DNA from: a virus
Virus record (IMG/VR): IMGVR_UViG_3300021197_000675
Span: 1-46,573 of that record
Direction: 5' to 3' (one strand)
DNA length: 46,573 bases
Shown piece after piece: positions 40,538 to 45,811 of the stretch. The position numbers were made by a program, and so were the translations under genes. Position 1 is the first letter of the stretch, and each line of letters begins with the position of its first letter. Below the pieces are notes generated by a model. It was not told the DNA's origin. It saw only the letters and a list, made by a program, of their open reading frames with translations, and did no database searches.

Positions 40538-40993
40538 TTAATAACTTAAAATATCATCAGGGTCAGAAATAGTCGCTATAACTTCGTCGTCGTTAAGTAT
40601 GCGAACCTCGCCACCTTCTATTCGGAATCTAGACCCCGCATAACGCGGAAAGACCACCCACTCTTTTTCCTTGCACCAAGGTCCTTCTGGAAACTTGTCG
40701 GTGTCTTTATAAGCTAAAGGGCCTTGCCGAAGAACATAACCTACCACTGTTTGAACTTGATCTTCATCCAACGTAGATTTAGTTATGGCTATCCCGCCAG
40801 AAGTAATTCCTTTGCCTCTATACGGCAGCACCAGCATTCTCCAACCGGTAGGTTGAGGCATACGATCCATTAAAGAATTACTAATCTGGGAAGGCTCTAA
40901 TACACGCTCATCGGGTTCTACATAAGCGTCATCAATGGTTTCTACTTTTGCGGAAGCGGTAACGCCCGCAGGGGTAATAATTGCACTAGTCAT
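40538..40993 (-). CDS. GroES-like co-chaperonin
   Basis: 151 aa. Residues 48-148 follow the GroES/cpn10 fold: TGWRMLVLPYRGKGITSGG, mobile-loop region GIAITKSTLDEDQ, VVGYVLRQGPLAYKDTDKF, EKEWVVFPRYAGSRFRIEGG, then EVRILNDDEVIATIS and DPDDIL. The N-terminal 45 residues are an extra arm not found in GroES. It probably works with host GroEL to fold the large capsid protein, as T4 gp31 does. Viral co-chaperonins of this kind are frequent in marine phages. It is placed before the capsid genes, which fits. Confidence 0.85.
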   Translation of the reverse strand: MTSAIITPAGVTASAKVETIDDAYVEPDERVLEPSQISNSLMDRMPQPTGWRMLVLPYRGKGITSGGIAITKSTLDEDQVQTVVGYVLRQGPLAYKDTDKFPEGPWCKEKEWVVFPRYAGSRFRIEGGEVRILNDDEVIATISDPDDILSY

Positions 40994-41225: not shown

Positions 41226-41642
41226 TTACTCCTCAAACCAAACAGGATTAACGTGGGGGCGATTAGCCAAATGAGCGTCTTTAATGGCGGCTTTGCTTTG
41301 TCCAAAATACTCTACGGCAAGGTGGTTTTTTACAAGTTCTTGGCACAACCACTTGTCATATACTTTAAAGTCTCCCAAGTAACGTCCGTACTTTCCTTTT
41401 TCGTGAGTCTTTAACGTAGCGACTGATCCGATTTTAAGGAAGTCTTGAACAAATCCTTTGGCCGCGAGTCCAAAACGTTTTTCTTCCAGATCTCTAGTGC
41501 GAGATTCCTCGCAATCAACCCCGAAAAGCCTAATACGCTGATTTGTAACAGAAATATTCCAGCCAAGATCCACATCCACATCTACCGTATCCCCATCGAT
41601 TATTTTGAGAATGGTGCAGCGAAAGATATAAGGATCAGACAT
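41226..41642 (-). CDS. Staphylococcal-nuclease-like endonuclease
   Basis: 138 aa with the SNase fold and the catalytic residues of the family: IIDGDTVDVDVD (D18 equals SNase D21), RIRLFGVDCEESR (R38, D43, E46 equal R35, D40, E43) and GKYGRYLG (R87 equals R87). The Ca2+-dependent active site is complete. No signal peptide, so it is probably cytoplasmic, used for host DNA breakdown or processing of phage DNA. It lies next to the lysis cassette and overlaps the lysozyme by eight bases. Confidence 0.88.
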   Translation of the reverse strand: MSDPYIFRCTILKIIDGDTVDVDVDLGWNISVTNQRIRLFGVDCEESRTRDLEEKRFGLAAKGFVQDFLKIGSVATLKTHEKGKYGRYLGDFKVYDKWLCQELVKNHLAVEYFGQSKAAIKDAHLANRPHVNPVWFEE

Positions 41643-42069
41643 AGGTGTTAGTCTTAATCATGTCAGTCACCTCTAAGCTACGACCTTTTACCTGTCGTGC
41701 CCATAAGCTATCTAAAAATTCAACGGCGGCTTTGGAATGTTCCCCTTTCTCCATATGGCCGATTGCTTTCTTAAACTGAGCGAAGCGTACCCGCCCCAGA
41801 TTGAAGTGCATATTAATAATGCCATCACGCCGCGCACCGTCCTCCAGTTCAGCAAACCACTTGTATTCCCGCGACAATTCCTTGATGGTGCGAAGAATAT
41901 CATTGGACAACATATAATCGATTTCGTCATCGCTTAAACCAAGCCCTTTGTGACTTGCCGCGCCTTCTATATTTCGCCCACAACCAATGTGTAAGATTCC
42001 CAAAGAATCTCTGTATGCGTGGGTTTTTACGCCTTCGTGGCGCTTGAGTGTTTCTATTAACTTTTCCAT
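41635..42069 (-). CDS. T4-type lysozyme (GH24 endolysin), Thr26 replaced by His
   Basis: 144 aa from ATG 42069, one base after the holin stop. Aligned without gaps to T4 lysozyme: HEG (E12, the catalytic Glu11 equivalent), YRDSLG (D21, Asp20 equivalent), then HIGCGRN, where T4 has TIGIGHL. Thr26 is therefore His27 here and His31 is Arg. The C-terminal helices align as well (ARRDGIINMHFNLG, WARQVKGRSLEV). An alternative start at 42174 would add 35 residues (MLMLLQLILLSVIWEGLLVQ...), a signal-like hydrophobic arm with a GGGAG ribosome site, but it would overlap the holin gene by 104 bases. The enzyme cleaves or rearranges peptidoglycan at the end of infection. Confidence 0.85.
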   Translation of the reverse strand: MEKLIETLKRHEGVKTHAYRDSLGILHIGCGRNIEGAASHKGLGLSDDEIDYMLSNDILRTIKELSREYKWFAELEDGARRDGIINMHFNLGRVRFAQFKKAIGHMEKGEHSKAAVEFLDSLWARQVKGRSLEVTDMIKTNTYV

Positions 42070-42070
42070 T

Positions 42071-42547
42071 TTATTTTCTGACACTACTGTCTCTGCCGTA
42101 GAAGCTGGAGGCGGCTGAACTAACAAGCCCTCCCAGATAACCGATAACAAGATTAGTTGTAGCAGCATCAACATCTGCTCCCATTAGAGTAACGAAAAAG
42201 CAGTATACCAAAAAACCGATAAGGGAGATCAAGGCAAACGCTTTACTGGTTCGGTCTTTGCTGAAGTGCCTACGGGCGTCTTTGGCATCTTCCGCTTCTG
42301 CATGGAATGCTTCTAGGTCAATCTCCATCTCGCGGATCTTGTCTTCAAACTCTCGATCTGCTTCTTTAACCTCGGCTACCCGATCGGGATTCTTTTCCAA
42401 AAACTTCTCAATCTTAACCGGGTTCTTTTCATTAATACCCAGCTTGTCAGACAGCATCTTGATAGCCATCCCCGCGACCGGATTGCTAGAGGCAATTGTC
42501 TTGGTGATGGTTGGGGCAAGAGTCTTGAGTAGGCCGCTAAGTTTCAT
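42071..42547 (-). CDS. Holin (GTA-type 3-TM holin family)
   Basis: 158 aa. N-terminal SGLLKTLAPTITKTIASSNP, helical middle (EFEDKIREMEIDLEAFHAEA), then two clear membrane segments: FALISLIGFLVYCFFVTLMG (about 104-123) and ATTNLVIGYLGGLVSSAASS (about 128-147), ending in FYGRDSS. This matches the GTA-type three-TM holin family, whose third, weaker helix would be the N-terminal one. It should form the membrane hole that lets the lysozyme act. Directly upstream of the lysozyme. Confidence 0.8.
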   Translation of the reverse strand: MKLSGLLKTLAPTITKTIASSNPVAGMAIKMLSDKLGINEKNPVKIEKFLEKNPDRVAEVKEADREFEDKIREMEIDLEAFHAEAEDAKDARRHFSKDRTSKAFALISLIGFLVYCFFVTLMGADVDAATTNLVIGYLGGLVSSAASSFYGRDSSVRK

Positions 42548-43170: not shown

Positions 43171-43379
43171 TAGTTAATTGTAAATTTTCCGCCTCTAAGC
43201 ATGGCTCCCATGCCACGGCACGTTCCCGTAGTGACCTTACCTTTGCCTAAGTTGGTAGGGGTAGGTATTTCTTTGTAGTCACTGAAAGGCGCTTTGCCCT
43301 GATCTTGAATAACCTCAAACTTAGAAGCTGCGGGTGTTTTAGGTGGCGGCGAACCGTTTGTTTTTACTGTTCTGCTCAT
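43170..43379 (-). CDS. Small basic protein with GMGAMLRGGKF end (69 aa)
   Basis: The N-terminal half is Pro/Lys-rich and probably disordered (TNGSPPPKTPAASKFEVIQD). The C-terminus TNLGKGKVTTGTCRGMGAML then RGGKFTIN has a double-glycine element like those in other virion-module proteins. It overlaps the portal gene by four bases (ATGG region). No enzyme motif; probably a small head component. Confidence 0.6.
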   Translation of the reverse strand: MSRTVKTNGSPPPKTPAASKFEVIQDQGKAPFSDYKEIPTPTNLGKGKVTTGTCRGMGAMLRGGKFTIN

Positions 43380-45811
43380 GGTGTTTCTCCTTCTTTTTGA
43401 CGTAATCTCATCATTTCGCGTCTATCTGACGCACTTATCCGCGCTGCGGTCTGGTTTTCTTGCGATTCTAGCCGATCATCAAACTGACGGCTTCTTTCCT
43501 GCATTTTTTGCTCATCTAACCCGAGTTTTGCTTGGTCGTTAGCAATATCTGCCTGTGTTTTCTGACCTTTTATGTCTATTTCTTGTTGTTTGAGAGCAAT
43601 TAACGGATCGGGACCTTCTTCTTCCCCTCCACCCATGATCTGCTGACTTAACTGACGTACCGCTGTCAGTTCTTGAGCAATAATCTGCGCCACCATCGCT
43701 TCCACTTGCAACATCTGGTCTTCCGTAGCCGGTTGACCTTGGTTTTTCTCCACAAATTGGATAGCCGCTTGCTCTCTAGCCTTCAATTTGACATGTTCCA
43801 GTACGTGTTTCTGCAAAGCCACTATAACATTAGGCAGTTGCTGCACCATTCCACCCGCCATAAACGTCAAATGCGCCATAATATGCGCGTCATGGTCCTG
43901 TCCCTCGAAAGCTCTGAGAGAAATCTCTTCCAAAGCGTCCACGTTCTCCTGTGCTGGATCTTTAGGCTGCGGTTCTTCCACTTCAGGCGCTTTCAAAATA
44001 CTGTCAATGTCCCGAACACCCAAGGCTTCGTACATTCTGCGGAAGGCTTCCTGCTGGTTGTGTAGCTGCGGAGCTTGCATAGCCAGTTCTAACTGACTTT
44101 GCGCCAAAGCAATGCGCTGTGCTTGTGAAAAAATGTTGGGATTGGACACAGGAACCACGTCTATGCGGTCATCAAAGTCCGAAGCCATGATGGTCTGGTC
44201 CCCACCGGGCACAGAATACGGATACTCTTGCGGCAGCGACTCGTGCATCACCCTAGCCAGAATCTTAAACTCTTTCCGCATCGCATAATGCAAACGCTTA
44301 TGCACAGCACTCATCACCCGTGCGCCCTGCTCTAGCATAGCCACCGTTGTCCCTACCGCTGCGCCTTGGTTACCGTCCCCTACTTTAAGATCGGTAATCG
44401 TGGCAAACCGTTGTGCGGCATCAACCACAAACCCCAGTAACTGGAACAACGTCGTATCAGGACCTTTGAACGGCAACGGCATCAGGCTATCCCGAATCGC
44501 ACCGCCCGGAGCATCCACGTCTCTAAACTCACCCGGCTGCAAAGGATCGGCATCGTCCCTGACCCGTAGGCCACGGGCCTTGAACCCTGCTGGCAAGTTA
44601 GACAACGTCCCCGCGTCAATCAACTGACGCAAAGCAGCGGTAGCCGTTCTCGACAAACCACCTATTGTGTGGATTAGCCCTAGCCCATAGAAACCAAAAC
44701 CGGGCAAAAACTTGTAATGTACAAAATAATTAATCTTTGTTTTTTTAGGGTCTTCTTCCGCGTAGTTTCTGCGAATAGATAGCACCGTTCCTTTCTCTTC
44801 GCTGATGGTCACGATATAGGGAAGTTTTATTCCCGTAGGCTCGTTCTCATCATCCATGTCTTCAAAGCCGTCTAAATCCAGTTCAACGTGAAACTCCAAC
44901 AGGTTAACGTCATAGTTAACGGTACTAGACGGGTCCACCCCTTCTATCTTGTTAATTTCTTTCTGAACTTCGTTATCAGGACCCTGCTGCGGTTCTAGCT
45001 CTACGTCTCTGTAGAATCCTGCAAGTTGTTGTTTTCTAAGGTCATTAGCCGACATCGGCACAACGTGAGTGATAATCGGACACGTCTCTAGGTTAGACGT
45101 TTCATAAGGAACCACTAAATGCTCGGCAGGAACAAAGGTACTGACCGGACGCTCTAACGCCGAATCGTAATACACTTTCTTAAACGTCGATCCTGCTAAC
45201 GGTAAATAAAACAACATCTGATCAAACTCAGGAGTGTATTCCTCCATAATGTCCGTCAGGTAATAATTCATAAACTGCTTAACGCGCTGGGCTTGCTGTT
45301 CTTTTTCTTTGGTTAACGCACCCATAATAGTCGTGCGAACCGGACCCTCTGGCGGCAAAAGCTCGTTGTAAGCCTGTGCCTGAAACTGAGTGGCAGCTTC
45401 GGCTAGTAACGGATGCGTTACTCCCGTAGCACCGCGAAACGGCTGAGTGCGTTCCTCATAATGAAAACCCAATAACTTGAGTCCCTCAGAATAAGTATCC
45501 ATCCACTCTTTGCGGGTTTCGTTGTTCCCTTCATACTGACCCTGCAAGTCCGCCGAAAGCGTACCTAACACCGTATCGTCCATGTCTTCAGCAAGGTTCC
45601 TGTAAAAGTCTCCTTCGTCCACCATCCTTTCATCTTGCGGGTCAAAGTCCACTAAAACCCCGCCGTCTTCCGTGTCGCTAACTTCAATCTCAGCCATCAA
45701 ACCTTCAATGTCTAACCCCGTGGTCTGAGGAGCGCCAATTTCGACATCGTCCATAATCTCAATGTCCACGGTATTCTCTACCATTGGCGTGATGCCTTCA
45801 CCATTAGCCAT
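43376..45811 (-). CDS. Portal protein
   Basis: 811 aa. The acidic N-terminus (about 1-65) is followed by the portal core: FRGATGVTHPLLAEAATQFQ, AQRVKQFMNYYLTDIMEEYT, FYLPLAGSTFKKVYYDSALE, FVPAEHLVVPYETSNLETCP. The crown/stem part follows with IGGLSRTATAALRQLIDAGT, GFKARGLRVRDDADPLQPGE and FRDVDAPGGAIRDSLMPLPF. The C-terminal 150 residues are coiled coil and Gln/Glu-rich (QQEIDIKGQKTQADIANDQA). This is a P22-type portal, large for the family. It forms the DNA gate at one vertex, and the downstream adaptors attach to it. The terminase is probably encoded upstream of the right edge. Confidence 0.85.
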   Translation of the reverse strand: MANGEGITPMVENTVDIEIMDDVEIGAPQTTGLDIEGLMAEIEVSDTEDGGVLVDFDPQDERMVDEGDFYRNLAEDMDDTVLGTLSADLQGQYEGNNETRKEWMDTYSEGLKLLGFHYEERTQPFRGATGVTHPLLAEAATQFQAQAYNELLPPEGPVRTTIMGALTKEKEQQAQRVKQFMNYYLTDIMEEYTPEFDQMLFYLPLAGSTFKKVYYDSALERPVSTFVPAEHLVVPYETSNLETCPIITHVVPMSANDLRKQQLAGFYRDVELEPQQGPDNEVQKEINKIEGVDPSSTVNYDVNLLEFHVELDLDGFEDMDDENEPTGIKLPYIVTISEEKGTVLSIRRNYAEEDPKKTKINYFVHYKFLPGFGFYGLGLIHTIGGLSRTATAALRQLIDAGTLSNLPAGFKARGLRVRDDADPLQPGEFRDVDAPGGAIRDSLMPLPFKGPDTTLFQLLGFVVDAAQRFATITDLKVGDGNQGAAVGTTVAMLEQGARVMSAVHKRLHYAMRKEFKILARVMHESLPQEYPYSVPGGDQTIMASDFDDRIDVVPVSNPNIFSQAQRIALAQSQLELAMQAPQLHNQQEAFRRMYEALGVRDIDSILKAPEVEEPQPKDPAQENVDALEEISLRAFEGQDHDAHIMAHLTFMAGGMVQQLPNVIVALQKHVLEHVKLKAREQAAIQFVEKNQGQPATEDQMLQVEAMVAQIIAQELTAVRQLSQQIMGGGEEEGPDPLIALKQQEIDIKGQKTQADIANDQAKLGLDEQKMQERSRQFDDRLESQENQTAARISASDRREMMRLRQKEGETP

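Follow-up and report, generated by a model that had tools for sequence, protein, structure and literature searches.

A natural histidine at the position of T4 lysozyme Thr26 in a phage GH24 lysozyme, and its repeated exchange with threonine among related viruses

The stereochemical outcome of catalysis is generally regarded as fixed within one glycoside hydrolase family. In T4 lysozyme, the engineered Thr26-to-His change converts an inverting enzyme into a retaining one (PMC2976769). The original prediction for the locus studied here held that a phage lysozyme carries the equivalent of this change naturally, and the locus thus raises the questions of whether the assignment is correct, how common such a histidine is, and which chemistry the enzyme would perform. 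The gene lies in a window of 46,573 nucleotides (the whole stretch of DNA analysed) from the IMG/VR virus record IMGVR_UViG_3300021197_000675:

41635..42069, minus strand: GH24 (T4-type) lysozyme/endolysin gene, 144 aa (PF00959, PHROG 7, T4 lysozyme fold)

The reading frame runs from an ATG at 42069 to a stop at 41635, and no other GH24 gene is found in the whole virus record (56.7 kb). Its product passed the curated cut-off of the Phage_lysozyme profile PF00959 (34.3 bits against 22.3) and matched the endolysin family PHROG 7 (4.9e-12). The AlphaFold model of the protein (pLDDT 90.6) has the T4 lysozyme fold and aligns with T4 lysozyme chain 173l over 142 residues (Z 17.9, rmsd 2.5). For every published structure of the GH24 family, the catalytic triad is stated to be Glu-X8-(Asp/Cys)-X5-Thr (PMC8228626). 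The first two members are present here as E12 and D21 at the E-X8-D spacing; in place of the threonine the lysozyme has His27, and the full spacing reads E-X8-D-X5-H. By its predicted fold and its sequence the protein is a GH24 lysozyme, but one without the canonical triad. The active-site positions discussed below are these, with the T4 lysozyme equivalents to which they were aligned:

42034..42036, minus strand: Glu12, equivalent of the general acid Glu11 (invariant in 187 aligned rows)
42007..42009, minus strand: Asp21, equivalent of Asp20 (Asp in 185/187 rows, Cys in 2/187)
41989..41991, minus strand: His27 codon (CAC), equivalent of Thr26 (ungapped alignment, PDB search, offset of the model alignment)
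41974..41976, minus strand: Arg32, equivalent of His31 (common among both Thr and His relatives)
41680..41682, minus strand: Arg130, equivalent of Arg145, the partner of Glu11 (Arg in 182/182 rows reaching the position)

BLASTP aligned the lysozyme with T4 lysozyme (24% identity, E 2e-14) without gaps over residues 4-35, pairing H27 with Thr26, E12 and D21 with Glu11 and Asp20, and Y19 with Y18. Both the placement of the histidine and the retention of the two acidic residues were therefore as predicted. The structural alignment agrees: it pairs model residue 2 with residue 1 of chain 173l, the same one-residue offset as in the sequence alignment, and, judged from the aligned ranges, it keeps H27 at position 26 and offers no alternative residue there. 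In the model, residue 27 belongs to the second strand (26-29); the interval first singled out in the DNA, 41986-41994, covers L26-H27-I28. When the PDB was searched with the lysozyme sequence, chain 1qt8, the T26H mutant of T4 lysozyme (E 6e-9), outscored 148l (7.5e-8), which we take to be the T26E adduct entry of T4 lysozyme.

With wild-type T4 lysozyme the window enzyme shares the fold, the E-X8-D-X5 spacing, Arg145 and the GxG hairpin, but, at the low identity given above, it has His for Thr26, Arg for His31 and a shorter N-domain loop. With T4 T26H (PDB 1qt8) it shares the identical substitution at the same position together with the Glu11, Asp20 and Arg145 equivalents; the histidine of the window enzyme, however, occurs in nature and is conserved across a clade of viruses, and a likeness in activity and stereochemistry would follow by analogy. 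The lysozyme of phage P1 also has a natural substitution in the GH24 catalytic triad (PMC8228626), but there Cys stands at Asp20 and Thr is retained, whereas in the window enzyme Thr is changed and Asp retained. Within the phage record collection, the lysozyme of phage C72C1 (42% identity) is the nearest relative; it resembles the window enzyme in overall sequence and in its GRN hairpin but has Thr at the site in question.

The frequency of His at residue 26 was examined in two samples. Among 80 close IMG/VR relatives, a set that leans towards the query, residue 26 was His in 55 and Thr in 25, with no other residue. For a sample unbiased at this residue we used a DNA pattern that fixes only E-G, Y-x-D-xx-G and I-G-x-G and leaves residue 26 free; a profile made from our own alignment assigned all of its matches, taken in collection order, to GH24. 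Thr was found in 118, His in 1 and Ser in 1 of the 120 matches listed, which gives a His frequency of about 1% in these matches (95% interval 0.02-4.6%). On these sequences, His26 is exceptional across GH24 and the majority state in the marine clade of the window lysozyme. The histidine is thus not peculiar to one phage: it prevails across a large clade of marine viruses and turns up again in other lineages of GH24.

None of the related isolate phages examined carried His26 (all had Thr, except for one with Ser), and a scan of bacterial genome contigs gave a single 22-residue match (L082), in a genome without a PF00959 match. In the open-access literature searched, we found no report of a natural His26 form of GH24. 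Other natural departures from the triad were seen in isolates: Shewanella phage ZP9 (L202) is changed at two triad positions, Asp20 being Cys and Thr26 being Ser, and Vibrio phage 1F53_PE003 (L205) has Cys20 with Thr26.

Sequencing error or chance as the source of the histidine was ruled out, since 90 distinct relatives have it and both His codons are used (68 CAT and 51 CAC in 119 His-bearing GH24 matches). His27 is real and selected. It is very improbable that the His form is the inactive remnant of a lysozyme or an artefact of assembly: the near-invariance of Thr elsewhere, in the 118 of 120 matches listed above, would fit such a reading, but the remaining catalytic and structural residues are conserved in all these 90 distinct His sequences.

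Phylogenetic analysis indicated that residue 26 has switched many times. In trees computed without columns 24-26, at least 13 Thr/His changes were counted over 187 rows (9 of them forced by well-supported branches), 12 over 87 rows (7 forced) and 8 in a careful 36-row tree, the exact number being soft because the sequences are short and many forks are open. A single origin of His was rejected by the AU test on the 36-row tree (p-AU 2.5e-7). Thr and His interchange among relatives that are 77-98% identical, and Thr rows nested in the His background of the lysozyme's own clade suggest a return to Thr. To go from Thr (ACN) to His (CAY), two bases must change; neither of the intermediates, Asn or Pro, was present at residue 26 in any of the 187 aligned rows.

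Scans specific for His, with searches that followed them up, showed that several divergent GH24 groups contain it. In group A (L104 type) it occurs in 4/80 rows, with the hairpin GIPHIG there as against mostly GNRTIG in the rest; in group C, in which the lysozyme is a domain of a larger protein, it occurs in 1/23 readable rows, and in group D in 3/4. Two members of group C, L306 and L307, differ at 11/290 bases, five of which fall within nine bases (TTC CCT ACG / TTG CCC CAT). Such clustering of replacements in the active-site hairpin suggests either a short tract of conversion or an event affecting several bases at once.

Little else in the active site changes alongside residue 26: the Glu11, Tyr18, Gly28 and Gly30 equivalents are the same across the 187 aligned rows. 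Arg at the His31 position, which had been noted as a neighbouring change, is correctly identified (R32 pairs with H31), but its linkage to the histidine does not hold. Arg is found at this position in 78/90 His rows as against 26/96 Thr rows, and two His rows retain His31; a combined Thr26His and His31-to-Arg package was ruled out, Arg31 occurring with Thr26 as well. The hairpin residues 24-25 do shift together with residue 26 (NRT/IPH, FPT/LPH). This could mean that His was acquired for another reason, such as metal binding, pH optimum, stability or a substrate modification, with a mechanism that is mixed or substrate-assisted. We consider this unlikely; residues 24-25 vary widely in Thr enzymes too, and no second new polar residue consistently accompanies His.

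Residue 20 bears more directly on mechanism. A pattern scan that required His but left residue 20 open gave 119 GH24 matches, 115 with Asp and 4 with Gly. The forms combining Gly20 with His26 fall in two His lineages, L458-L460 and L461. The former retain a TPARAKR or TPARARR segment with the Arg145 equivalent, and isolate phages related to them have Cys20 or Asp20, with Thr26; L461 is a single-base variant, at the residue-20 codon, of L147, which has Asp. Gly20 was absent from 96 distinct Thr rows, and its weak excess with His (3/60 vs 0/96, Fisher p = 0.055) compares two samples that were drawn differently. T4 T26H reportedly requires Glu11 and not Asp20, according to a report of 1999. The occurrence of Gly20 in two His lineages fits with Asp20 being dispensable once His takes over.

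The explanation that we favour, holding it about as firmly as we doubt it, is that the gene encodes an active GH24 endolysin in which His27 probably serves as the nucleophile of a retaining reaction, by analogy with engineered T26H. In the endolysin of this marine podovirus-like phage, His naturally takes the place of the water-positioning Thr26. The His27 side chain would attack the anomeric carbon of MurNAc, and Glu12, paired with Arg130, would act first as general acid and then as base. The outcome would be a retaining double displacement with transglycosylation possible, as in the engineered T4 enzyme, which is reported to be retaining (Kuroki 1995, Kuroki 1999, Hiromoto 2017). The agreement with T4 lysozyme in fold and spacing, and the presence of His at the T26 position with the general acid Glu retained, speak for this mechanism. 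So do the constancy of the Tyr18, Gly28, Gly30 and Arg145 equivalents in His rows, the restriction of the 80 close relatives to Thr or His despite the two bases involved, the repeated origin of His, and the Gly20 forms. We favour retention through a His nucleophile over inversion with a His base because the rest of the engineered enzyme's features are kept.

It is nevertheless quite possible, if short of probable, that the enzyme is still inverting, with His27 and Asp21 positioning or deprotonating the catalytic water as Thr26 does, in which case the swap would be nearly neutral and the product unaffected. The retention of Asp20 in 115 of the 119 His matches speaks for this and against a His nucleophile, so the residue appears mostly still needed for something. 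The interchange between close relatives, with a probable return to Thr within the His clade, points the same way, since such easy reversion may mean that the two residues are functionally equivalent. At 24% identity to T4 lysozyme, the orientation of the histidine could also differ from that in T26H. Against continued inversion stand the enzymes with Gly20 and His26, from which the usual base is gone, and T4 T26H, the sole tested His26 enzyme known to us, which is retaining (PMC2976769). The parallel with T26H drawn in the original prediction thus survives as the best available analogue for a step from inverting to retaining (PMC2976769), and a changed mechanism in the natural enzyme would be an extension of it.

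In a wider reading, GH24 would be a naturally mixed-mechanism family, in which single-residue flips between inverting (Thr26) and retaining (His26) forms took place on seven or more occasions, probably both ways, with some His forms later losing Asp20. We hold this wider reading tentatively, as nearly an even call. From the Thr/His interchange it could follow that a change of stereochemistry is tolerable to phages, or that His performs the role of Thr; switching without other catalytic changes implies that both chemistries are equally useful to the phage or that the residues are chemically equivalent. The natural Thr/His pairs are evolution-tested material for asking if a single residue decides between inversion and retention, if the choice matters to phages, and if a retaining enzyme would also transglycosylate in the course of lysis. 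They also provide the classic engineered T4 mutant with a natural counterpart and offer natural scaffolds for transglycosylating muramidases. With its recurrent origin in related viruses, the change may be a case of nature repeating a well-known protein-engineering experiment.

The lysozyme gene sits between a holin-like gene before it and an SNase homologue and a GroES-like gene after it:

42071..42547, minus strand: small holin-like protein directly upstream of the lysozyme (phrog_1544; hydrophobic C-terminal segments seen by eye; putative function)
41226..41642, minus strand: SNase homologue (PF00565)
40538..40993, minus strand: GroES-like co-chaperonin (PF00166)
43376..45811, minus strand: portal protein

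The portal protein shares about 51% identity with its counterparts in Pelagibacter phages HTVC027P and HTVC023P, which relates the virus to this group of marine phages. In the phages nearest by portal (HTVC027P, HTVC023P, DSL-LC04, 023Pt_psg01 and CRP-902), no GH24 gene was found in the stretch examined around the portal gene. The lysozyme frame itself stays open upstream of the ATG at 42069, adding a hydrophobic extension of 35 residues (42070-42174, minus strand) that shares its DNA with the upstream gene, which is read in a different frame. A similar in-frame extension is seen in many relatives; it may serve as a signal or anchor sequence, or may simply result from the overlap of the two genes.
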